Shown in pieces: positions 4,281 through 14,902 of a DNA stretch of 32,811 nt. Position numbers and translations under genes: made by a program. Within the stretch, counting starts at the first letter, position 1; each line of letters begins with the position of its first letter. The stretch is from the NCBI GenBank assembly GCA_029933125.1, contig JAOZOU010000014.1:1-32811 (forward strand), read 5' to 3'. The notes under the pieces are model-generated. The model ran no database searches, had not been told where the DNA came from, and worked only from the letters and a program-made list of their open reading frames with translations. This DNA is from a bacterium. Its GTDB lineage: Bacteria; Arandabacterota; Arandabacteria; Arandabacterales; Arandabacteraceae.

Positions 4281-4316
4281 TTCTTACTCTCCATAATGAA
4301 CCTTGCCTAAATGCGA

Positions 4317-4346
4317 AGCGTAGCAAAGCCTTTGCAGCAGCGTCAA
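4317..4346 (-). promoter_or_regulatory. candidate sigma-70-type promoter of treY-malQ
   Basis: On the minus strand TTGACG (4346-4341) is followed by an 18-nt spacer and TACGCT (4322-4317). The start point would be near 4310, about 30 nt before the treY ATG. The -35 is good but the -10 is weak (3 of 6). It lies back-to-back with the promoter of the divergent operon. Confidence 0.35.
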
Positions 4347-4356
4347 GGCGATGAGC

Positions 4357-4385
4357 TTGACCTTAAGATGAGACTCGGGGATAAT
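4357..4385 (+). promoter_or_regulatory. sigma-70-type promoter of the molybdoenzyme operon
   Basis: TTGACC (4357-4362), a 17-nt spacer and GATAAT (4380-4385) form a five-of-six plus five-of-six match at ideal spacing. The predicted start near 4392 leaves a 36-nt leader that ends in a GGAGG site (4417-4421) before the GTG at 4428. This placement also argues against any start codon upstream of 4428. Confidence 0.6.
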
Positions 4386-4427
4386 AAGGGTGCAGCTGGC
4401 CAATCTCAGTCCTGCTGGAGGTCATGT

Positions 4428-6395
4428 GTGAGGCAAGTCATCACCTCTTGTACTCAGGATTGTCCCGATACATGCTCCATAGTAGCAGAGGTGAGTGGGG
4501 GTAGGGTCATAAAGATAAGGGGAAATCCTGACTGTGAAATAACACGTGGCTTTCTCTGCCGTAAGTCACGTAATTTCCTTCCTCGCCTGCACAGCAAGGA
4601 GCGAGTTCTCAAGCCGCGCCTTCGCGATGGGGCCTCATGGAGGGAGATCTCGTGGGAGAGAGCACTTGATATTGTGGCAGCAAAGCTCGAAGCCTCCCTC
4701 AAGAGGTACGGGCCTCTGAGCATTTACTATTTTCGGGATGCGGGCTCGATTGCCGCACTAAAAATGGTAAATGAGCGCTTCTTCAATCTTCTTGGTGGTG
4801 GCACATTCGCCTCAGGCACTCTTTGTGGGGGTGCAGGGATTGCAGGGCAAACACGCGATTTTGGATTACGTACTAGTCATGATCCGCATGATCTTCTCAA
4901 TGCCAAGGCAATCCTTGTATGGGGAAGAAATCCCGCCTGGACGAATGTGCATCTTGTACCAATTCTCCGTGAGGCTCGCAAGGGTGGCTGCTATTGTGTT
5001 CTCATAGACCCTCTGCCGACAGCAACCTCAAAACTTGTCGACTGGCACCTAGCTCCCTCGCCAGGTTCAGATGCTTACCTTGCAATAGGGCTTATGAAGG
5101 TTATACTTGATGAGGATCTGGCCGACACCGATTTCGTTGAGAAGCACACACACAACTTCGATGCCCTGAAAAAAGAGCTTGAAGCCTTCGACCTTAAAGT
5201 CATATCTGATGAAACTGGTCTAAGTCTTCGGGAAATAAACAAGTTGGCTCGTATCTATGCTGAATCCAAGCCAGCTGCAATCGTTGGAGGGTGGGGATTC
5301 CAGCGGCGTCGTAATGGAGCTCAGGTCTATCGCCTCCTGGATGCGCTTGCTGCTCTGTGCGGAAATGTGGGCGTGCCGGGTGGTGGGGTCAGCCATGGAA
5401 TGGACGAGACTCGCTGGTTCGAATCCCGTAAGGTCCTTTTGAGGGTGGGTACAGCAAGGCGTGAGATCCCTAAGCCCCAGACGTGGAAGGGAATTATGAC
5501 TTGTGGGGATCCTCCAATAGAAGTGGCTTTCATTACAGCCGCAAATCCCGTTTGCCAGTGTCCCAATTCCAATCTTGCTCCAAGGGCAATCGCTGGCATT
5601 GACTTTGTTATCGTTGCAGAAATGTTTATGACAGATACGGCTATGCTGGCAGATCTTGTTTTGCCCACCACTCACTTCCTCCAGGAGACCGATCTTGTAG
5701 GTAGCTATTGGCACAACTATGTAATGCCTGTAAATGTTGCGCAAGCCAGATTGGGGGAAGAGAAGACCGACCTTGAGATTTTTGCTCTTTTGGCGAAGCG
5801 AATGGGCCTCGAAAAAGAGTTTCCCAACGATGCAATGTTTTTTCTAGAAATTCTTGCCGAACCCCTCAAGCAGTATGGTTTCAAGCTTTCCCAACTTATG
5901 GAGGGGCCTGTAAGGCCACCCACGCATGAAGTTCCCTTTTCGGATAAAAGGTTCCCGACCCCTAGCGGCAGGATTGAGCTTATCTCTGAGATCGTCATAC
6001 CTTCGACAAAGAGATCCAGCGCCTACCCCTATTACCTTCTTTCTCCTCATCCCGCTAGTCAGACGCATTCTCAAGCACGCAGTATCCCGTCGAAGGGGTA
6101 TCCTCAAGCAGAGGTATCACCGAGAGTTGCTCAAACGCTTGGTGTTGACAGGGGGTCTCTAATTAAGGTAAAGACTCCGCAGGGGGAATTGATATGTCAT
6201 GTCGAAGTTGTGCCCGCCCTAAGGGACGACGTTGTGGTCATACATGAGGGAACTTGGGAGATGATGGGTGGGAGTGTGAACAGATTGACATCTGACGAGC
6301 TCAGTGACGAAGGTCTGTGTGCCACATACAACGATTTAGCCTGCAGTCTCTCCAAAGTCGAACCATCCGCTAAATCTGTAAGAGGTTCAAGGTGA
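4428..6395 (+). CDS. molybdopterin oxidoreductase (DMSO reductase superfamily, formate-dehydrogenase-like)
   Basis: This is a 655-aa catalytic subunit of the Mo/W-bis-pterin family. The N terminus carries a 4Fe-4S site C8-x3-C12-x3-C16-x27-C44 (from CTQDCPDTC to GFLCRKS). A likely Mo/W ligand is Cys133 in SGTLCGGAG. Cofactor-binding stretches include ILVWGRNPAW, AIVGGWGFQRRR, FITAANPVCQCPN and DLVLPTTHFLQETD, and residues about 540-650 form the dinucleotide-binding C-terminal domain. I use GTG 4428 because GGAGG ends 6 nt before it and a promoter lies just upstream; the longer frame from ATG 4311 adds 39 residues without family character. There is no twin-arginine signal, so it should be cytoplasmic. 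The substrate is not readable from sequence: formate, thiosulfate/polysulfide or an organic acceptor are all possible. The only partner encoded next to it is the ferredoxin/ASKHA protein, 15 nt downstream. Confidence 0.85.
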   Translation: MRQVITSCTQDCPDTCSIVAEVSGGRVIKIRGNPDCEITRGFLCRKSRNFLPRLHSKERVLKPRLRDGASWREISWERALDIVAAKLEASLKRYGPLSIYYFRDAGSIAALKMVNERFFNLLGGGTFASGTLCGGAGIAGQTRDFGLRTSHDPHDLLNAKAILVWGRNPAWTNVHLVPILREARKGGCYCVLIDPLPTATSKLVDWHLAPSPGSDAYLAIGLMKVILDEDLADTDFVEKHTHNFDALKKELEAFDLKVISDETGLSLREINKLARIYAESKPAAIVGGWGFQRRRNGAQVYRLLDALAALCGNVGVPGGGVSHGMDETRWFESRKVLLRVGTARREIPKPQTWKGIMTCGDPPIEVAFITAANPVCQCPNSNLAPRAIAGIDFVIVAEMFMTDTAMLADLVLPTTHFLQETDLVGSYWHNYVMPVNVAQARLGEEKTDLEIFALLAKRMGLEKEFPNDAMFFLEILAEPLKQYGFKLSQLMEGPVRPPTHEVPFSDKRFPTPSGRIELISEIVIPSTKRSSAYPYYLLSPHPASQTHSQARSIPSKGYPQAEVSPRVAQTLGVDRGSLIKVKTPQGELICHVEVVPALRDDVVVIHEGTWEMMGGSVNRLTSDELSDEGLCATYNDLACSLSKVEPSAKSVRGSR

Positions 6396-6410
6396 TTGAG
6401 GAGGCAAGGT

Positions 6411-8234
6411 TTGGCTAAACAATCCATAAGAGTTGTATTCATGCCTGATTCACGGGAGGTTTGGGTCGTCTCTGGTTCCACAATTCGCGATGCCCTATTA
6501 GCAGCGTCCATCCCCATCTCAATGCCATGTGGCGGCCACGGCCGCTGCGGCAGATGCCTCGTGCAGGTGAGCGGGGGGGTGACTGCACCTAGTGAGGCTG
6601 AGCTTCGATTGCTTGGTACCCATTCGGGCAATATGCGCCTTGCTTGCATGGCGAGACTCGAGGGTGACGCAGAGGTCGTCATACCAAGGGCCACACGCGT
6701 AACCGTTCAGAAGGTGAGCACCTCAGGCAGGTCGAGCGGGAGATATCACTTCGATCCTGGGATCGTGAAGGTGTATCTTGGCAAGTGGCGCTCGCCAAGA
6801 ACGTGGAAGAGACTTGCCACCTATGGAATTGGTGTTGAGGATGTAACAATAGGGATGGTCAACCCGACTCTCGTTGATGCCAAGCTACGTGAGGATCATG
6901 AGTGGCAGCTTGGTCTCCACAGCGATGCCACGGTTGTAGCTTCACCCGAAGGAATTATCGGATTTGAAGCGGGCAACACGACTGATGAGTGTTACGGCAT
7001 CGCAGTGGACATTGGAACTAACACGGTTGTCTGCTCTATGGTAGATCTTCTCAGTGGTTGTGAAATAGGTGTCACATCTGCAATCAACCCTCAGGTAGCT
7101 CATGGTGACGATGTCATCTCGAGAATCAGATTCTCAAAGAAGCCTGGTGGACTCAATCTACTCAGGGATGAGATTGTTCATCTCATTAAAGGACTTACCG
7201 CTGAGCTGGTGAGCAGGCTCAATATCGATCCTAGCCGTGTCTATCTTTGTAGTGCAGTCGGCAATACGGCGATGCAACACATTCTCATCGGAATCTCCCC
7301 CGTGGATCTGGGACGTGCACCTTATAGATCGAAGCTAACTTTGGGTGTTGATATGCCAGCTGAGCAAGCTGGACTTCTTGGGCACCAGCGTTGCAGGCTC
7401 ATCATGCCGCCGCCAATCGGTGGTTTTGTCGGAAGTGATATTGTTGCTATGATTGTCTCTCAGGCGCTGCATAGAAGGCGGGTTCCTGCAGTTGCAATTG
7501 ACATTGGCACAAATGGTGAGATCGTCTTGGTAACCGGTGATAGGATTTTAGCTTGCTCGACAGCTGCCGGACCAGCTTTTGAAGGAGAAAGAATAAGTTC
7601 AGGAGTAAGAGCTGTTGATGGTGCTATTGAGGACGTAAGCATAAAACGCGGTGATGTGGTTCTCAAGACAATCGGTAAAGGTCTGCCCGTTGGAGTCTGT
7701 GGATCGGGGTTGATCGCTGCAATAGCCGAGCTCCTGAGGGTAGGTGTTATTGAACCTAGCGGACGGATCAGGAGACCGGGTGAGATTGCGAATGCCAAGC
7801 TTGCTCAGCGCGTACGCGAGAATGACACAGGCAGAGAGTTTGTGCTCTTGAAAGAACCCATGATAAGCGTGAGGCAGGGGGACGTCAGGGAAGTTCAACT
7901 GGGCAAGGCTGCAATCTGTGCAGGTATAAAGGTGCTTGCATCCATTGCTGGCATAGACGTGGACGAAATAAGGACAGCCCTCGTTGCGGGGAGCTTTGGC
8001 TCGTCTCTCAGGGCTGCATGCTTTAAGCGCCTCGGATTTCTACCCCAAAGCTTCAGTGGCAGGATAAGGTCAATTGGTAATTCCGCTATTGAGGGAGCCA
8101 AGATGTTTCTTGTATCGAGGCAAGCAAGGGATGAAGCATTCTCCCTTGCAGAGAGATGTGAACATGTTGAGCTTTTCTCCCATGCAACTTTCAAAGAAGA
8201 ATTTTACGCAAGCATTGGCTTCCCAGCTCCCTGA
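6411..8234 (+). CDS. [2Fe-2S] ferredoxin / ASKHA-domain protein (RACo-like, DUF4445 family)
   Basis: This 607-aa protein has an N-terminal [2Fe-2S] ferredoxin domain with C40-x5-C46-x2-C49 (PCGGHGRCGRCLV) and a fourth Cys in LACMARL, then a linker and a C-terminal ASKHA ATPase-like domain. The domain shows AVDIGTNTVVCSM, CSAVGNTAMQHI, AIDIGTNGEIVLV, GVCGSGLIA and VAGSFGSSLRA. Family members such as RACo reduce inactive Co(II) corrinoid proteins in an ATP-dependent step; many relatives have no known partner. No corrinoid protein or methyltransferase is in the window. I start at TTG 6411 because GAGGAGG (6398-6404) sits 6 nt upstream; the earlier TTG at 6396 has no site. Co-transcription with the molybdoenzyme suggests an electron-transfer or activation role for it, which is inference. 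Confidence 0.85.
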   Translation: MAKQSIRVVFMPDSREVWVVSGSTIRDALLAASIPISMPCGGHGRCGRCLVQVSGGVTAPSEAELRLLGTHSGNMRLACMARLEGDAEVVIPRATRVTVQKVSTSGRSSGRYHFDPGIVKVYLGKWRSPRTWKRLATYGIGVEDVTIGMVNPTLVDAKLREDHEWQLGLHSDATVVASPEGIIGFEAGNTTDECYGIAVDIGTNTVVCSMVDLLSGCEIGVTSAINPQVAHGDDVISRIRFSKKPGGLNLLRDEIVHLIKGLTAELVSRLNIDPSRVYLCSAVGNTAMQHILIGISPVDLGRAPYRSKLTLGVDMPAEQAGLLGHQRCRLIMPPPIGGFVGSDIVAMIVSQALHRRRVPAVAIDIGTNGEIVLVTGDRILACSTAAGPAFEGERISSGVRAVDGAIEDVSIKRGDVVLKTIGKGLPVGVCGSGLIAAIAELLRVGVIEPSGRIRRPGEIANAKLAQRVRENDTGREFVLLKEPMISVRQGDVREVQLGKAAICAGIKVLASIAGIDVDEIRTALVAGSFGSSLRAACFKRLGFLPQSFSGRIRSIGNSAIEGAKMFLVSRQARDEAFSLAERCEHVELFSHATFKEEFYASIGFPAP

Positions 8235-8424: not shown

Positions 8425-8449
8425 CATAAGAGGTGGTGACAACTGAATA

Positions 8450-8584
8450 GCAAGGCCAAATGGAGTTCCCTGCTATGCTCGTGATTTGCCAGGTCGTGGG
8501 CTGATCTCCAGGAAAACTAAACCTCGAGTTTCACGTTTACCTCGCACACGACATTGCAGTGGGGAACTCCATTTGGCTTTTTGC
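8450..8584 (+). promoter_or_regulatory. long-stem leader RNA structure ending in a T-run
   Basis: A perfect 16-bp inverted repeat pairs 8455-8470 (GCCAAATGGAGTTCCC) with 8562-8577. It is extended outward by GCAAG/TTTTTGC pairing and inward by CTGC/GCAG (8470-8473 with 8556-8559). Inside are two competing partners for CACG 8547-8550 (CGTG 8480-8483, or GTCGTG 8493-8498 using 8547-8552) and an apical hairpin 8512-8532. Five T (8578-8582) follow the stem directly. It lies just downstream of the sigma-54 start point, so it would be in the operon's 5' leader. It could be an attenuator, a ligand- or protein-sensing leader, a separate small RNA or a MITE-like repeat. I recognise no known riboswitch consensus. 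Confidence 0.6.
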
Positions 8585-8638: not shown

Positions 8639-8675
8639 CATGATTGCCTTTGCTAAAATTGCCCAAGGATGGAAA

Positions 8676-9329
8676 ATGGTTACCCAATATGACATCGCAA
8701 AGCTAAGCCAGGAGGTCGCCAGGCGTGTAATCTCCCGAATGACTCCTGGAATTGGGGATCGTATTCTGGTTCCTATAGGTGTTTCAGCGCGTCATATCCA
8801 CCTGACAAGGGAAGTGCTTGAAGGTCTCTTCGGTAAGGGCTACGAGCTCAAGCCTCTGCGAAAGCTGAGTCAACCCGGGGAATTTGCTTCAAACGAGACG
8901 GTGACCATCGTTGGACCGCGTGGGGCAATAGAGAAAGTCAGACTACTTGGCCCACTTCGCACTTTCACTCAAGTTGAGCTGGCAAGGAGTGATGGCCTCA
9001 AACTCGGACTTGACCTTCCTGTCAAAAGAACAGGTGATCTTGCCGGGACCCCGGGAATAACACTCGTTGGGCCACAGGGAACTGTTGTTCTCTCCGAGGG
9101 TGCGATAAGAGCAACCCGCCACATTCATATGAGTCCGGATGATGCTTCACGTTTCGGACTTCAGGATGGCCAAATCGTAAAAGCTCGAATCGAAGGCGTA
9201 AGAGCTGTTGTGCTTGAGAATGTTCTGGTGCGAGTTAGCCCCCGTTTTGTACTTGACTTTCACATTGACACTGATGATGCTAACGCTGCTGGAGTGGAAA
9301 CGGGTTGCTTTGCTGAGGTGCTTGTGTAG
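8676..9329 (+). CDS. pduL: phosphate propanoyltransferase, PduL type, BMC cargo
   Basis: PduL exchanges CoA for phosphate on acyl-CoA, giving acyl phosphate and regenerating CoA inside the shell. The 217-aa protein has two beta-barrel repeats. Metal-binding histidines are visible as SARHIHL (H40, H42), RHIHM (H149, H151) and DFHIDTDDANA (H196). Residues 3-20 (TQYDIAKLSQEVARRVIS) form an amphipathic helix typical of an encapsulation peptide. I start at ATG 8676, 6 nt after AAGGA (8665-8669). An in-frame ATG at 8640 would add 12 residues but lies before or at the predicted start of the nearer promoter. It is the first gene of the BMC operon, 19 nt before the first shell gene. No acetate/propionate kinase is nearby to use the acyl phosphate. 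Confidence 0.95.
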   Translation: MVTQYDIAKLSQEVARRVISRMTPGIGDRILVPIGVSARHIHLTREVLEGLFGKGYELKPLRKLSQPGEFASNETVTIVGPRGAIEKVRLLGPLRTFTQVELARSDGLKLGLDLPVKRTGDLAGTPGITLVGPQGTVVLSEGAIRATRHIHMSPDDASRFGLQDGQIVKARIEGVRAVVLENVLVRVSPRFVLDFHIDTDDANAAGVETGCFAEVLV

Positions 9330-9348
9330 GCTATGGAGGTGATCGAGT

Positions 9349-9615
9349 TTGCCTGAAGCACTGGGTAAGATAGAGACCAAGGGTTTTGTTGCTGCAGTCG
9401 AGGCAGCTGATGCTATGGTCAAAGCGGCTAAGGTTGCCCTCACAAGGTATGAAAGAACTGGCGGAGGGCTGGTCGCTGTCTTTGTGCGTGGAGATGTTGG
9501 GGCTGTGAGGGCTGCTGTTGACGCTGGAGCAAGAGCTGCACAAAGGGTTGGTGAGCTGGTGAGTGCTCATGTCATACCAAGACCCGATTCGTCGCTTGAG
9601 GACATAATGCTTTAG
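9349..9615 (+). CDS. BMC-H hexameric shell protein, copy 1
   Basis: This 88-aa single-BMC-domain protein of the PduA/EutM/CcmK type tiles the facets of the shell as hexamers. Diagnostic stretches are [31 protein letters not shown], the pore loop TGGGL, then [17 protein letters not shown] and [12 protein letters not shown]. The pore loop is all glycine where PduA has GSG, which may change what passes. It starts at TTG 9349, 4 nt after a full anti-SD match GGAGGTGATC (9335-9344), so strong translation is expected as for an abundant shell protein. It is a tandem paralogue of the next gene. Confidence 0.96.
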
Positions 9616-9664
9616 GTCTATGCTTTAGATCTTGAAAAAGTCATAAAGAAGGAGGTCGAGCAAC

Positions 9665-9982
9665 GTGGCAGAAGGTGTTGAGGGAATCTACAGAGAGGCT
9701 CTGGGATTGATTGAAACTCGGGGCTTTGTTGCCATGGTGGAAGCCTCAGATGCAATGGTGAAGGCAGCCAAGGTGACACTGGTGGGATATGAAAAAATAG
9801 GTGGAGGCTACGTTACAGCCATAGTTCGCGGCGATGTTGCTGCTGTTAAGGCTGCTACAGATGCTGGTGGCGCTGCGGCAAGCAAGGTGGGTGAGCTCGT
9901 CTCAGTTCATGTAATACCGAGACCCCATCCCAACCTTGAGGACGTTCTCCCGATCGGCAGACTCCAGAAGACCAAGAAGTAG
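9665..9982 (+). CDS. BMC-H hexameric shell protein, copy 2
   Basis: This 105-aa BMC-H protein is closely similar to the preceding one ([50 protein letters not shown]). It has an extra eight residues at the N terminus and a basic C-terminal tail ending QKTKK. Its pore loop is IGGGY rather than TGGGL, so mixed hexamers or two pore types are possible. GTG 9665 follows AAGGAGGTC with about 8 nt spacing. A 49-nt gap separates it from copy 1, the second-largest gap inside the operon's shell/cargo section. Confidence 0.96.
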
Positions 9983-10002
9983 ACAATACGGGAGGCTGAA
10001 AA

Positions 10003-10296
10003 TTGATAATTGGTGAAGTAGTCGGCACCGTTGTTGCGACGCGTAAGGAAGAACGTCTAACGGGGCTCAAATTCCAGATCGTAAAGGTCATAAATGTTGA
10101 TCTTGAGCCAACCGGTCAATTCCTGATTGCCGCTGATGCTGTTGGTGCGGGCTATGGAGAAGTGGTTCTCTGCTCACAGGGAAGCTCTGCACGCCTTACA
10201 GCCAAGACAAAGGATTGCCCGGTGGACGCTGTCATAATGGGTATAGTTGATACAATCGAGATCCAAGGTAAGGTCGTTTTCGAGAAATATGCTTGA
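10003..10296 (+). CDS. BMC-P pentameric vertex protein (EutN/CcmL family), copy 1
   Basis: Pentamers of this family cap the vertices of the polyhedral shell. The 97-aa protein starts MIIGEVVGTVVATRKEERLTG and shows VDLEPTGQFLIAADAVGAG, GEVVLCSQGSSAR, PVDAVIMGIVDTIEI. TTG 10003 has GGGAGG 7 nt upstream. Compared with the two other BMC-P copies in the operon it has a longer C-terminal end (EIQGKVVFEKYA), and its last 8 nt overlap the start of the aldehyde dehydrogenase gene, so the two are translationally coupled. Confidence 0.95.
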   Translation: MIIGEVVGTVVATRKEERLTGLKFQIVKVINVDLEPTGQFLIAADAVGAGYGEVVLCSQGSSARLTAKTKDCPVDAVIMGIVDTIEIQGKVVFEKYA

Positions 10297-11704
10297 TGAA
10301 AAGGTTATAAGCGCAATAGTTGAGGAGGTGCTTAGGAAGCTAAAAGTTGATGTATCGCAAGCAGCTCAAGCCACACGTGGCCTTGGCGTTTTCGCAAGTG
10401 TGGATGAGGCTGTTGAGGGAGCACGCAAAGCGCAGCGCGACTTTCAAGATATTTCGATTGAGCGAAGGAAGAAAATTATCGATGCAATGCGCAAGGTCTC
10501 GATCGAGCATGCGAGTGAGCTCTCGCATCTTGCCATTGAGGAAACAGGGCTAGGGCGTTATGAGGATAAGGTCAACAAGAATCTGCTCGCGGCAACTCGC
10601 ACGCCCGGTATTGAGGATCTCCAGCCCGAAGCCGTATCAGGTGATCATGGTCTGACAATTGTTGAGCGAGCACCCTATGGTGTGATCTGCTCTATCACCC
10701 CCTCAACCAATCCATCCGAGACCGTGATCAACAACGGGATTGGTATGATTGCTGGAGGCAATTCTGTGGTTTTCAATCCTCACCCTTCAGCTCGCAAGAT
10801 AACCCAGAGAACGATTGATTTGCTAAACTCTGCAATTGTGAGCCAAGGCGGCCCACCCAACTTGCTAACATGTGTGGCTGAGCCTTCGATCGAGACAGCA
10901 CAACAAGCCATGCGCCATCAAGACACGAGACTGGTTGTTGTGACAGGCGGAGGAGCTGTTGTCAAGGAAGCTCTGAATTCCGGCAAAAAGGTTATTGCGG
11001 CGGGTCCAGGCAACCCACCAGTTGTTGTTGATGAGACTGCTGACCTTCCTACTGCAGCCAAGCACATCGTTGACGGAGCCTCTCTTGATAACAACATCGT
11101 CTGCGTATGCGAAAAGGAGGTTTTGGCTGTCGATAAGATAGTCGACCAGCTCAAGGCAAGGATGCTCGAGCACGGTGCAGTGGAGATAAAAGGTCGGGAC
11201 ATTGACCGCCTTGAAGCTCTTGTCATCAAGGAAAACAGAGGGCCATCGAAGCATGCTGTTACTCAGAGGGCGTATGTGGGGAAAGACGCAGGGATTCTCT
11301 TGAGAGAAATAGGTATCACAGGTCACGATCAGGCAAGACTTATCATTTGTGAAACGCCACTCAGTCATCCATTTGTCTGGACTGAACTCCTCATGCCTAT
11401 TCTTCCAATAGTAAGAATAGGTGATGTTGATCAGGGCATCGAACTTGCCAAGAAGGTTGAGCATGGTTTTGGGCATACTGCTGTTATGCACTCTACCAAC
11501 ATAACCAAGCTGTCGAAGATGGCAAGGTTAATAAATACAACTATCTTCGTAAAGAATGGTCCTGCCTATGCAGGTTTGGGGTTTGGCGGCGAGGGCTATA
11601 CGAGTTTCACAATAGCGAGCCCGACGGGGGAAGGGCTCACATCTGCCCGCACCTTTACAAGAATGCGGCGATGTGTGCTTGTTGACTATTTCAGGATCAT
11701 CTGA
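10289..11704 (+). CDS. CoA-acylating aldehyde dehydrogenase (PduP/EutE type), BMC cargo
   Basis: The enzyme oxidises an aldehyde with NAD+ and CoA to acyl-CoA and NADH. The 471-aa protein has the acylating ALDH landmarks VERAPYGVICSITPSTNP, NSVVFNPHPSA, VVVTGGGAVVKEAL, AAGPGNPPVVVDETAD and the catalytic block SLDNNIVCVCEKE. Cys272 aligns with the nucleophile of DNNxxCxAEKE; Cys274 is an extra nearby cysteine. The N terminus LDEKVISAIVEEVLRKLKV is an amphipathic helix followed by a short linker, a typical encapsulation peptide. ATG 10289 overlaps the preceding BMC-P gene by 8 nt; an in-frame upstream ATG at 10247 would sit deep in that gene. The true aldehyde cannot be read directly; the aldolase in the operon suggests lactaldehyde or a similar C2-C3 aldehyde. 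Confidence 0.95.
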   Translation: MLDEKVISAIVEEVLRKLKVDVSQAAQATRGLGVFASVDEAVEGARKAQRDFQDISIERRKKIIDAMRKVSIEHASELSHLAIEETGLGRYEDKVNKNLLAATRTPGIEDLQPEAVSGDHGLTIVERAPYGVICSITPSTNPSETVINNGIGMIAGGNSVVFNPHPSARKITQRTIDLLNSAIVSQGGPPNLLTCVAEPSIETAQQAMRHQDTRLVVVTGGGAVVKEALNSGKKVIAAGPGNPPVVVDETADLPTAAKHIVDGASLDNNIVCVCEKEVLAVDKIVDQLKARMLEHGAVEIKGRDIDRLEALVIKENRGPSKHAVTQRAYVGKDAGILLREIGITGHDQARLIICETPLSHPFVWTELLMPILPIVRIGDVDQGIELAKKVEHGFGHTAVMHSTNITKLSKMARLINTTIFVKNGPAYAGLGFGGEGYTSFTIASPTGEGLTSARTFTRMRRCVLVDYFRII

Positions 11705-11715
11705 GGTCACTTCAA

Positions 11716-13041
11716 TTGATAGCAACTTTCCCAGCATCGAAAAGTGAAATAGTCAATCGGATATATGAAGCTGGTGTGGTTGGGGCTGGCGGAGCAGGTT
11801 TCCCTACCCACATTAAGGCAGACTCACGAGCTGAGATAGTTATCGCCAACGCCTGTGAATGTGAACCTCTTATTCGATCGGACAGGTTTGTGCTTGAGGC
11901 TTTTCATGAAGAAGTTCTTGAGGGCTTACACCTCATGATGCTCGCCACTGGTTCGAGCAAGGGTTTGGTCGCTCTACGGGAAGGCTCGAGCATTCCAGAT
12001 CTTGAGAAAAGATTGGCTAGCTCGCCGGCGCTTGATATTGTGAGAGTCCCCAATACCTATCCGGCAGGGGATGAACATATCCTGGTCTATGAGGCGACAG
12101 GCCGAATCATCCCTCAGGCAGGAATCCCGCTTGATGTTGGTGTGGTCGTTTCCAATGTAAATACGCTTCTGAATGTTTCAAGAGCTGTGCACGGTAGGCC
12201 TGTGACATCAAGAATTGTCTCGGTTTGTGGCGATATCCCAAAGCCATGTGTCACAGAGGTTCCTATTGGAACCTCTGTGGGCTTTGTCCTCGAGGCTACA
12301 GGGAATCAGGTTGATCTTAAGGAGAAGGCAATCCTTCTTTCGGGTGTGATGATGGGGGAGATCTGTGAGGACCTGACAAGAACCGTTGATAAGAGGATAG
12401 GTGCAATAATAGTTTTGCCCAGAAGCAATCGCGTTGTCATATCTAAGTCACTATCGGTTGAAACAATGGTGAGAAGGGCTGCTTCGGTATGCTGCCAGTG
12501 CCAGCTCTGCACGGAGATATGCCCGCGCCATCTTATGGGCCATGCTATATCTCCACATAAGATAATGCGCGCTGTCGCATGGATGATTACATCGAGTGAA
12601 GATCTTGCTGGTGCTCTCCTATGTTCCGGCTGTGGCCTTTGCGGTAGCTATGTCTGTCCGATGGCTCTATCGCCTGACAGGATAAGCTACATGGTTAGAA
12701 GAATGCTTGCGGAGAGGGGAATAAGAGCTGAGGCAGTTCCGTCAGAGGTGAGACCACTTAGGGCTTGGAGACTTGTTCCTCATGAGCGCATCCTCAATCG
12801 AACAGGTGTTGGAATCTATGAGCGAGATCTCAACTTTGTCCCAATTTCACCTCCAGGTCTTGTCCGCATCCCTTTGCTTCAGCATAGTGGGGTTCCCGCA
12901 AGCCCTAAGGTTGCTATTGGTCGGCATGTCTCAAAAGGAGATTTAATTGGTGAACCTCAAGGTCTTGGTGCAAGAGTTCATGCTTCAATTGATGGGATTG
13001 TGAAGGCAATTGATGACTTTGTCACGATCGAGTCGAAATGA
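11716..13041 (+). CDS. pduS: PduS-like (RnfC-type) flavo/Fe-S oxidoreductase of the BMC
   Basis: PduS is an NADH-oxidising flavin/Fe-S protein; in Pdu compartments it is linked to cobalamin reduction. This 441-aa protein has the N-terminal nucleotide/FMN-binding loop GVVGAGGAGFPTHIKA, the stretch NACECEPL, an SLBB-type middle part, and two 4Fe-4S motifs: C259-x2-C262-x2-C265-x3-C269-P and C303-x2-C306-x2-C309-x4-C314-P. A C-terminal barrel ends VHASIDGIVKAIDDFVTIE. TTG 11716 is preceded by GAGGT about 8 nt upstream. Its stop overlaps the ATG of the BMC-T gene by 4 nt, so the two are probably made in fixed ratio. There is no B12-dependent enzyme in the operon, so I infer NADH re-oxidation rather than corrinoid reduction. 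Confidence 0.9.
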   Translation: MIATFPASKSEIVNRIYEAGVVGAGGAGFPTHIKADSRAEIVIANACECEPLIRSDRFVLEAFHEEVLEGLHLMMLATGSSKGLVALREGSSIPDLEKRLASSPALDIVRVPNTYPAGDEHILVYEATGRIIPQAGIPLDVGVVVSNVNTLLNVSRAVHGRPVTSRIVSVCGDIPKPCVTEVPIGTSVGFVLEATGNQVDLKEKAILLSGVMMGEICEDLTRTVDKRIGAIIVLPRSNRVVISKSLSVETMVRRAASVCCQCQLCTEICPRHLMGHAISPHKIMRAVAWMITSSEDLAGALLCSGCGLCGSYVCPMALSPDRISYMVRRMLAERGIRAEAVPSEVRPLRAWRLVPHERILNRTGVGIYERDLNFVPISPPGLVRIPLLQHSGVPASPKVAIGRHVSKGDLIGEPQGLGARVHASIDGIVKAIDDFVTIESK

Positions 13042-13592
13042 ATAAAGTTGAGGCGATAGGGCTTGTTGAGCTCAACAGCATAGCATCAGGAATACGGACA
13101 GCTGATGAGATGGTGAAGGTGGCGCCCGTGATTCTGATTGCTGCGATGACAATTTGTCCGGGCAAGTATATCTCGCTCGTTGGGGGTGAAGTGAGTGCTG
13201 TGGAATCATCCGTAAAGCGAGGTAAGGAGGTTGGCGGAGAATGGGTTGTTGACAGTCTCTTCATTCCCAATATTCACTCCGATGTCTTTCCTGCAATCAG
13301 AGGAACCGCTACGATAGAGCATGTCAAGGCCGTTGGGGTAATCGAGACATTTTCAGTAGCTGCAGCTATAATAGCAGGAGACGGTGCTGCCAAAGCTGCC
13401 AAGGTACGCCTGATGGAGCTCAGACTTGCTCAGGGTCTTGCTGGCAAGTCGTTTGTTACAATGACAGGTGACGTCAGCGACGTAATAGCTGGTGTCGATG
13501 CCGGGGTGACACTTATTCGCGAGAGTGGTATGCTGGTTAAGTCAGTCGTCATACCGAGACCTCACGATGATTTGAGGGAGAAATTGCTTTAG
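13038..13592 (+). CDS. pduT: PduT-like tandem BMC-T shell protein with Fe-S pore motif
   Basis: This 184-aa protein has two BMC domains in tandem and should form a trimer. The first half is VEAIGLVELNSIASGIRTAD, then MTICPGKYISLVGGEVSAV; the second is VGVIETFSVAAAIIAGDGAAKAA, then MTGDVSDVIAGVDAG and VVIPRPHDDL. Cys40 in TICPGK sits where PduT has the cysteine that binds a 4Fe-4S cluster at the three-fold pore (established for PduT). It is therefore likely a redox port in the shell, not a plain metabolite pore. It overlaps the PduS-like gene by 4 nt and lies one base before the next BMC-P gene. PduS-PduT contact is known in the Pdu system. Confidence 0.93.
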   Translation: MNKVEAIGLVELNSIASGIRTADEMVKVAPVILIAAMTICPGKYISLVGGEVSAVESSVKRGKEVGGEWVVDSLFIPNIHSDVFPAIRGTATIEHVKAVGVIETFSVAAAIIAGDGAAKAAKVRLMELRLAQGLAGKSFVTMTGDVSDVIAGVDAGVTLIRESGMLVKSVVIPRPHDDLREKLL

Positions 13593-13593
13593 A

Positions 13594-13857
13594 ATGCATA
13601 TTGGCAAAGTGATAGGTACTGTTGTCGCAACAAGAAAAATAGCGGAGCTCAGAGGGGCAAAGTTGCTTGTTGTGCAACCGCTTTCACCCGATCTTGAACC
13701 AAGTGGAAAACCCTTAGTCGCAATTGACAATGTCATGGCTGGGCCAGGTGATATCGTCTATTTTATTCGTGGCCGCGAGGCAGCTCATACACGTGATGAG
13801 AAGTTCAACCCAGCGGATGCTGCCATAATGGGCATAGTTGACAGAGTTGATCTCTAA
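13594..13857 (+). CDS. BMC-P pentameric vertex protein, copy 2
   Basis: This 87-aa EutN/CcmL-family protein reads MHIGKVIGTVVATRKIAELR, then LSPDLEPSGKPLVAIDNVMAG and PADAAIMGIVDRVDL. It starts one base after the BMC-T stop and its stop shares a base with the next ATG (TAATG). No obvious ribosome site precedes it apart from GAGGGAGAAA in the end of the BMC-T gene, so it probably relies on coupling. It is the most similar of the three copies to copy 1 in its N-terminal half (IGxVxGTVVATRK). Confidence 0.95.
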   Translation: MHIGKVIGTVVATRKIAELRGAKLLVVQPLSPDLEPSGKPLVAIDNVMAGPGDIVYFIRGREAAHTRDEKFNPADAAIMGIVDRVDL

Positions 13858-14141
13858 TGTACATTGGAAAGGTCATAGGTGATGTGGTCTCGACTATAAA
13901 GTACGAGACCCTGAAGACCCATAAGATTCTCATCGTCCAGCCAATCGATCCCGATATGAAGGAGAGGGGGGAGCCTATACTTGCTCTCGATATGGTTGAT
14001 GCAGGTAAGGGTGATGTCGTTCTCATAGTCGATCAGGGAACAGCTGCAAGAACTGTGCTATCAATGGAATATCCGACCGTGCGTACTTTGATACTTGGCA
14101 TCGTGGATAGAATCGACCTCAGACAGGAGACATCCAGGTGA
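13857..14141 (+). CDS. BMC-P pentameric vertex protein, copy 3
   Basis: This 94-aa vertex protein reads MYIGKVIGDVVSTIKYETLK, IDPDMKERGEPILALDMVDA, GDVVLIVDQGTAARTVL and LILGIVDRIDL. It is the most divergent copy: the usual TVVATRK is DVVSTIK. It overlaps both neighbours, by 1 nt upstream and 4 nt downstream (GTGA). Three BMC-P paralogues in one locus are also seen in the planctomycete/verrucomicrobial fucose-rhamnose compartments. Confidence 0.95.
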   Translation: MYIGKVIGDVVSTIKYETLKTHKILIVQPIDPDMKERGEPILALDMVDAGKGDVVLIVDQGTAARTVLSMEYPTVRTLILGIVDRIDLRQETSR

Positions 14142-14902
14142 AGACCTTCTCCTTTGAGGAAGCTTCAGACGCAATCCTCGAGATAGGAAAACGAATGTAT
14201 GAGAAAGGGCTTGTTGTTGCAACAGATGGAAATATAAGTGTGCGACTTTCTGCGGATAGGTTGCTTGTTACACCGAGCGGAATGAATAAGGGTATGCTTA
14301 CACGGGGTGATCTTGTTGTCACAAATATGAAGGGTGAAAGGATAAGCGGAAGGCGTGAGCCAACTTCAGAGATAAAGATGCACATAAAGGCTTATGAAGT
14401 TAGAGCCGATATTGGGGCAGTTGTACATGCCCATCCACCATATTCCACAGCTTTTGCCGTTGCTGCAATTCCCCTTGAAGAATGCATTCTACCTGAGATT
14501 ATTGTCTCAATAGGTTCTGTACCAATTGCGGAATATGCAACACCTTCCACTGAGGAAATGCCCCGCAGCATAGAAAATGTTGTTAAGGGTTGTGATGGTT
14601 TCCTCCTCAGAAATCACGGTGTTATGACGGTGGGTAAGAATCTCCTTGAAGCCTATCATAAGCTCGAGATGGTTGAGCATCTTGCAAAGATAACACTGCT
14701 CACAAGGCATCTGGGTGGCCCCAAACCATTGAGTTCCGAGGATGTGCGGAAGCTCTACACATTGAGAAAGGAGACTGACGGAGCTCCATATCCTGGATGC
14801 AGGATGCCGAGTAGCCAGCCAGGAAGTCTTGAGGAGCGTGCGGAGCTTATCAAATTGATTGCTGAAGAGGTTAGCAAAATACTCAAGGGTGGACAAAAAT
14901 GA
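14138..14902 (+). CDS. class II aldolase (fuculose/rhamnulose-1-phosphate type) with C-terminal encapsulation peptide
   Basis: Class II aldolases of this family cleave fuculose-1-P or rhamnulose-1-P to L-lactaldehyde and DHAP with a Zn ion. The 254-aa protein shows TDGNISVRL, VTPSGMNKG, PTSEIKMH (catalytic Glu78), the Zn ligands VVHAHPPYS (H97, H99) and LRNHG (H160). It is about 35-40 residues longer than usual: after a linker CRMPSSQPGS comes an amphipathic helix (231-250, LEERAELIKLIAEEVSKILK) that resembles the N-terminal helices of PduL and the aldehyde dehydrogenase. I infer that it is targeted to the shell lumen. GTG 14138 overlaps the BMC-P stop by 4 nt. It overlaps proS by 4 nt downstream. 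It is the signature enzyme candidate of this compartment; the sugar phosphate is unproven. Confidence 0.9.
   Translation: MKTFSFEEASDAILEIGKRMYEKGLVVATDGNISVRLSADRLLVTPSGMNKGMLTRGDLVVTNMKGERISGRREPTSEIKMHIKAYEVRADIGAVVHAHPPYSTAFAVAAIPLEECILPEIIVSIGSVPIAEYATPSTEEMPRSIENVVKGCDGFLLRNHGVMTVGKNLLEAYHKLEMVEHLAKITLLTRHLGGPKPLSSEDVRKLYTLRKETDGAPYPGCRMPSSQPGSLEERAELIKLIAEEVSKILKGGQK

Follow-up and report, generated by a model that had tools for sequence, protein, structure and literature searches.

Which sugar phosphates feed the bacterial microcompartment (BMC) that is encoded by a ten-gene operon in a bacterium of the family Arandabacteraceae (GenBank assembly GCA_029933125.1)? The operon runs from 8676 to 14902 on the forward strand of contig JAOZOU010000014.1, and we refer to the whole stretch of 32,811 nucleotides that was analyzed as the window. 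An earlier note on this DNA had likened the operon to the fucose/rhamnose compartments of Planctomycetes and Verrucomicrobia, and had described it as lacking an alcohol dehydrogenase, a kinase, and a B12-dependent or glycyl-radical signature enzyme. We favor another explanation, to which we assign a probability of roughly 70%: the operon would encode the shell and core of a split metabolosome of the SPU (sugar phosphate utilizing) type, which is fed by deoxynucleosides and has its signature enzymes in two loci, and it would not be a fucose/rhamnose compartment.

All ten of the genes that the note had named are present on one strand. They are nearly contiguous (neighboring genes are separated, or overlap, by anything from a few bases to fifty), and their Pfam matches are above the cut-offs:

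8676..9329, +, PduL-type phosphotransacylase (PTAC) with an N-terminal helix (DIAKLSQEVARRVIS); PF06130, E = 6e-74; NF011652 above cut-off
9349..9615, +, BMC-H shell hexamer 1; PF00936, E = 2e-29
9665..9982, +, BMC-H shell hexamer 2, EutM-like; PF00936, E = 7e-30; EutM model NF012018 above cut-off
10003..10296, +, BMC-P vertex pentamer 1; PF03319, E = 1e-30
10289..11704, +, CoA-acylating aldehyde dehydrogenase (AldDH), with an N-terminal helix (MLDEKVISAIVEEVLRKLK) like an encapsulation peptide (EP); NF011927, 679 bits; placed by a tree
11716..13041, +, PduS/RnfC-like flavoprotein, with a Nuo51 FMN domain and two 4Fe-4S motifs; PF01512, PF13375, PF13534; CxxCxxC...CP motifs in the open reading frame
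13038..13592, +, tandem BMC-T, PduT-like, with the pore Cys of a 4Fe-4S site (TICPGK); two PF00936 domains; Cys aligned in 3nwg and 3pac
13594..13857, +, BMC-P vertex pentamer 2; PF03319, E = 7e-29
13857..14141, +, BMC-P vertex pentamer 3; PF03319, E = 5e-24
14138..14902, +, class II aldolase with a C-terminal EP-like helix; PF00596, E = 4e-50; FucA/DrdA fold; in the slot of DeoC in colinear SPU loci

The SPU type, and an SPU-like locus with a class II aldolase, were named by Axen 2014 (PMC4207490). Sutter 2021 (PMC8217296) distinguished 68 types of BMCs and proposed DNA catabolism for SPU; according to its main text, all seven SPU subtypes have pfam01791 and pfam02502.

DeoC and RpiB in a satellite operon

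The contents of the window's genome (3.23 Mb, 97% complete) were probed one family at a time. A search for DeoC and RpiB found an adjacent pair on contig C174, in an operon with the order Alr-Cdd-RpiB-DeoC-DeoA, as well as a separate and ordinary RpiB on contig C176. In relatives, this deo operon also contains DeoB, which was not located in the window's genome, although no search of that genome was aimed at DeoB. The DeoC of C174 has about 67 extra N-terminal residues, which lie outside every solved DeoC, and the adjacent RpiB has about 44. Both extensions open with a helix that is amphipathic, as scored against shuffled sequences (p = 0.002 for DeoC and 0.04 for RpiB). The idea of a compartment without its usual enzyme is therefore not supported, since this satellite deo operon encodes both DeoC and RpiB with extensions that resemble encapsulation peptides. 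Equivalents of the DeoC extension were found across lineages. In most of the closest DeoC matches, the alignment reaches into the extension or covers it fully, and in many others it begins only at about residue 65-70.

The same test was applied to the enzymes of the main operon. The C-terminal helix of the class II aldolase (p = 0.003) and the N-terminal EP-like helix of AldDH (p = 0.03) stand out from shuffled sequences, and the amphipathic N-terminus of PduL is weak (p = 0.09). The predicted structure of the aldolase has a catalytic domain, a low-confidence linker at about 220-230, and a C-terminal helix at 231-251. As a separate observation, two aldolases that are not related to each other have Cys-rich CxxCxxC(xxC) motifs beside their encapsulation-like helices: DeoC, in its extension (residues ~34-43 in locus L179), and the class II aldolase, in the linkers from nine loci. 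In the DeoC of loci L274 and L276, the motif resembles the ferredoxin half-motif CxxCxxCxxxCP. Just one Cys of the Cys-rich motif is left in the window's aldolase.

DeoC and RpiB are encoded within BMC loci in six genomes and in locus L101, where RpiB, DeoC, and class II aldolase all lie together. One of the six genomes, G007, belongs to the window's class, and its main BMC locus encodes a class II aldolase, a CcmP-like BMC-T, and a protein in which RpiB and DeoC are fused through an EP-like linker. In three of the DeoC-bearing loci (L265, L274, and L276), the order is PduL-(H/AckA)-P-AldDH-PduS-T-RpiB-P-P-(H)-DeoC. The window is colinear with these, and its class II aldolase occupies the slot of DeoC. 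Conversely, three BMC-P genes lie inside the cdd-rpiB-deoC-deoA operon in two other genomes (G139 and G276). Three Eisenbacteria-type genomes with the identical ten-gene operon also carry the tagged DeoC and deo satellite, and a tagged DeoC is present in G073 and, inside the BMC locus, in G110. Overall, DeoC was found at E ≤ 1e-60 in 118 of the 386 genomes that we sampled.

The ten-gene operon itself recurs elsewhere. We compared the window's genome to seven others from its class (eight in all), and all seven have BMC genes. (Genes in high-GC comparison loci were called by a method based on codon usage.) The order PduL-H-H-P-AldDH-PduS-T-P-P-aldolase is found in six cases from the window's family or order, as well as in five loci from Candidatus Eisenbacteria and related metagenome-assembled genomes. 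With losses or broken contigs, the order is also seen in two loci from Nitrospinales and in five other loci. Because this order recurs in the window's own family and in several other lineages, it is not due to chance. One of the five other loci, L076, comes from G073, a genome that was not assigned to the window's class, and even its ProS-RpsT-MurJ flank is the same as in the window. The PduS of L076 is just 25% identical to the window's PduS, and its aldolase lies elsewhere in the aldolase tree.

The RpiBs that are linked to deo or BMC genes have an altered active site. In 27 of the 28 cases (including L179:6451-7047), Asp replaces the Cys that acts as the catalytic base; the exception is the second copy in L271. 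The Thr/Ser proton shuttle at +2 is gone in 25 of the 28 (replaced by Ala, Val, or Ile). The ordinary RpiBs from the window's class keep both the Cys and the Thr/Ser (8 rows, representing 7 distinct genes). The linked RpiBs do keep Asp10, His11, and Asp45 (28/28) and the ring-opening residues, which are the equivalents of His102 and His138 (27/28 each). (The roles of the catalytic and ring-opening residues are described in PMC4783025 and PMC3212906.) Since these sequences are related, the 27 of 28 cases are not independent evidence, and this may be one ancestral change that was widely kept. Still, the altered site suggests a repurposed enzyme. In a 2-deoxy aldose, there is no hydroxyl at C2 to isomerize, so an RpiB that has kept ring opening and lost isomerization would fit as a partner for DeoC. 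This would explain why an isomerase, which would be inactive on a 2-deoxy sugar, travels with or is fused to deoxyribose aldolase.

Alternatively, the class II aldolase might be the only signature enzyme and might split another ketose-1-phosphate (such as ribulose-1-phosphate, to glycolaldehyde and dihydroxyacetone phosphate, or DHAP), while DeoC and RpiB would be cytosolic and their tags would be coincidental or have another role. Among NCBIfam models, the one for archaeal ribulose-1-phosphate aldolase scores comparatively well against the aldolase, though below the cut-off, and DeoC was not matched in several genomes that have the colinear operon. We nevertheless consider this explanation unlikely, given that DeoC and RpiB are found inside BMC loci elsewhere, with the two fused by an EP-like linker in G007, and that the satellite DeoC and RpiB bear similar tags.

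Comparison to fucose and rhamnose compartments

In PVM-type compartments, the class II aldolase cuts L-fuculose-1-phosphate or L-rhamnulose-1-phosphate to DHAP and lactaldehyde, and AldDH and PduL then act. Could the window encode a PVM-like compartment? A FucA-fold class II aldolase with a C-terminal EP, AldDH, PduL, and the BMC-P triplet are all in the operon, and the signature enzyme of PVM is likewise a class II aldolase, as described in the main text of PMC8217296 and PMC4207490. So, the note was right that these families are shared with PVM-type loci. The analogy to fucose and rhamnose catabolism did not fare as well. No FGGY kinase (PF00370) was found in any of the 8 genomes from the class, while the same model matches 11 of 14 controls. 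Also, AldDH and the aldolase fall outside the groups from fucose/rhamnose loci that are linked to kinases or isomerases, and a deo satellite co-occurs instead.

The tree of AldDH was built with a careful method and has 39 sequences. (The nearest solved chains to the window's AldDH are 5jfl and 4c3s.) The window's class is supported at 100/98. The window's class, the colinear operons from other lineages, and all 6 SPU AldDHs form one group of 26 rows (84/93), within which the sub-order is not resolved. The AldDHs of the fucose/rhamnose loci with linked kinases or isomerases, along with their close relatives, fall outside this group. For the class II aldolase, we used a quick method. All 13 of the kinase- or isomerase-linked rows are in one 68-row group (SH-aLRT 87), which excludes the window's family and 11 of the 12 colinear aldolases. 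Between them, the kinase search and the two trees disfavor a fucose/rhamnose route, and we consider a PVM-like function to be quite improbable. Instead, the operon comes close to lying inside a well-described BMC type: it groups with SPU but has an altered set of genes.

Several points weigh against a split SPU-type metabolosome. The grouping with SPU in the AldDH tree is moderately supported, and SPU is not monophyletic. The trees contain no planctomycete or verrucomicrobial PVM references, so the comparison to PVM rests on the linked-gene criterion. Five genomes (G070, G076, G080, G101, and G108) have no match to DeoC, despite having the colinear BMC operon in whole or in part; in these genomes, either the class II aldolase is the source of the aldehyde or the satellite is missing. 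And the putative encapsulation of the enzymes is deduced from helix-like tags, with p values of 0.002-0.09.

Substrates, acetate, and electrons

If the split metabolosome operates as we propose, then Cdd and pyrimidine nucleoside phosphorylase (DeoA) would free 2-deoxyribose-1-phosphate from deoxynucleosides in the cytosol, and phosphopentomutase (DeoB) would convert this to 2-deoxyribose-5-phosphate, which would enter the shell. Inside the shell, the RpiB-like protein would present the substrate to DeoC, which would split it to glyceraldehyde-3-phosphate and acetaldehyde. The class II aldolase would be a second signature enzyme, and would convert a ketose-1-phosphate to DHAP and a short aldehyde. 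AldDH would oxidize acetaldehyde to acetyl-CoA, PduL would convert this to acetyl-phosphate, and an acetate kinase from elsewhere would form acetate and ATP. The genome does encode an acetate kinase, outside of the operon. NADH would be reoxidized by PduS, with the electrons exiting via the Fe-S site of the PduT-like pore.

The electron route is probably how this organism would recycle NAD+. The PduS-like protein has Nuo51 and RnfC domains and dicluster Fe-S motifs, and the Cys of the BMC-T (in TICPGK) aligns with the Cys of PduT. A 4Fe-4S site has been discussed for PduT and for a Listeria shell protein, and a link between a BMC and extracellular electron transfer was shown in Listeria, which is a precedent for recycling NAD+ by exporting electrons (PMC8547011). 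The window's genome has no iron alcohol dehydrogenase (PF00465), which makes electron export the likely route; zinc-type alcohol dehydrogenases were not searched for. More broadly, the reported lack of an alcohol dehydrogenase or a sugar kinase holds at the locus, and genome-wide it holds for the families that were searched (PF00465 in the window's genome, and PF00370). Similarly, no B12-dependent or glycyl-radical signature enzyme is encoded in the 32.8-kb contig, which is where we looked for them; the rest of the genome was not searched. With PduS and PduT present and no iron alcohol dehydrogenase, it seems plausible that the compartment is purely oxidative, as the note proposed, and that it exports electrons.

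Running the pathway in reverse, with AldDH reducing acetyl-CoA to acetaldehyde as a sink for NADH and the aldolases condensing this acetaldehyde with triose phosphates for storage, would use the same set of DeoC, RpiB, AldDH, and PduS and was proposed for Atribacteria (PMC6281690), but it is highly improbable here, as the satellite genes cdd, deoA, and deoB are degradative and the presence of acetate kinase is consistent with catabolism.

Which substrate might the class II aldolase have? No other gene in the window's genome has PF00596, so the genome has no MtnB, FucA, RhaD, or AraD of that family. The genome does have an MtnA above the cut-off, on contig C161 (L218:8017-9060). The 5-deoxyribose/DHAP-shunt pathway (PMC6079011) would call for just this combination, an MtnA and a class II aldolase with no MtnB, and the gene content of this genome might point to a route for salvaging 5-deoxyribose or 5'-methylthioadenosine that ends in the aldolase. 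Tentatively, then, the aldolase might act on 5-deoxyribulose-1-phosphate supplied by MtnA and yield DHAP and acetaldehyde. In pairwise comparisons, the window's aldolase scores 92.7 bits against DrdA (6btd) and 80.0 bits against the best E. coli FucA entry. We considered whether it is an ortholog of DrdA and rejected this: the tree places DrdA with FucA, apart from all of the BMC aldolases. Because the aldolase does not group with DrdA, MtnA is common in bacteria, and no linkage of MtnA to the class II aldolase was seen (in 90 loci), the case for this substrate is weak. It is more doubtful still that the compartment is a pentose-phosphate lyase with two aldolases, in which RpiB would be a ring opener that gives open-chain 2-deoxyribose-5-phosphate to DeoC and the class II aldolase would add acetaldehyde from 5-deoxyribulose-1-phosphate.

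Gene neighborhood and related BMC types

The start of PduL at 8676, as in the earlier note, is most likely correct: it is preceded by a Shine-Dalgarno sequence (AAGGA), and the alternative in-frame ATG at 8640 has a poorer one. Outside of the operon, the window's genome has no further genes with PF00936 (the BMC domain). Downstream of the operon are ProS, RpsT, a glycosyltransferase-like open reading frame, and MurJ. Upstream, beyond a 400-bp gap, are a molybdopterin oxidoreductase that resembles formate dehydrogenase and a corrinoid activator that resembles AcsV/RACo (4311-8234). The activator is retained throughout the order, while the oxidoreductase is present in only some genomes. Between the RACo-like gene and PduL, about 145 nucleotides (8439-8583, + strand) are conserved in six relatives, with 84-90% identity within the family and 79% within the order. 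The predicted fold has an energy of -64 kcal/mol (z = -6.1), and 8 pairs have changed on both sides and yet are kept. An Rfam search of this region found no match at E ≤ 1. By eye, the region is reminiscent of 6S RNA, which is a tentative lead.

Among known BMCs, those of the SPU type have AldDH, PduL, often PduS and BMC-T, a DeoC-type aldolase, and RpiB. The window's main locus is colinear with SPU loci, and its AldDH is in the same group. Unlike SPU loci, the main locus lacks both the DeoC-type aldolase (pfam01791) and RpiB (pfam02502): a DeoC with an EP-like tag is in the deo satellite instead, as is an N-terminally extended RpiB of the Cys-to-Asp form that is seen in SPU loci, and a class II aldolase with a C-terminal EP takes the slot of DeoC. 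Because the two defining features of SPU are found only in the satellite, we do not claim strict membership in SPU. The SPU-like locus from Latescibacteria, as presented in the main text of Axen 2014, shares AldDH, PduL, PduS, and the class II aldolase with the window and also includes RpiB and acetate kinase, which the window's genome has elsewhere, along with DeoC.

PVM and PVM-like loci resemble the window in having the class II aldolase, AldDH, PduL, and several BMC-P. They differ in that the window's genome has no sugar kinase, its locus has no dehydrogenase similar to lactate dehydrogenase and no acetate kinase, and PduS and BMC-T are present. The ACI type (from Acidobacteria) has a class II aldolase with a C-terminal EP beside BMC-H and a BMC-P triplet, but its AldDH is encoded at a satellite, and it also has a hydroxyacid dehydrogenase. 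The HO type (from Haliangium) has an EP-bearing DeoC at a remote site; however, it uses BMC-Tdp, and its DeoC is not reported to be in a deo operon in the main text of PMC8217296.

Relative to the main text of PMC4207490 and PMC8217296, several features appear to be new: the split layout, the membership of the signature enzymes in a deo operon, the shell genes inside a deo operon, the class II aldolase in the slot of DeoC, and the change in the active site of RpiB. Parts of this may be tabulated in the supplements of those papers.

SPU is one of the commonest types of BMCs, and its substrate was guessed from a possible role in DNA degradation; in the literature that we consulted, we found no experimental test of this. 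Tagged DeoC and RpiB are encoded in the cdd-deoA-deoB operon of several lineages, and two genomes have shell genes in that operon; with these findings, the nucleoside hypothesis becomes specific enough to be tested. And since the signature enzyme of an aldolase BMC that seemed to have none was found in a satellite, classifying BMCs from the main locus alone can mislead.

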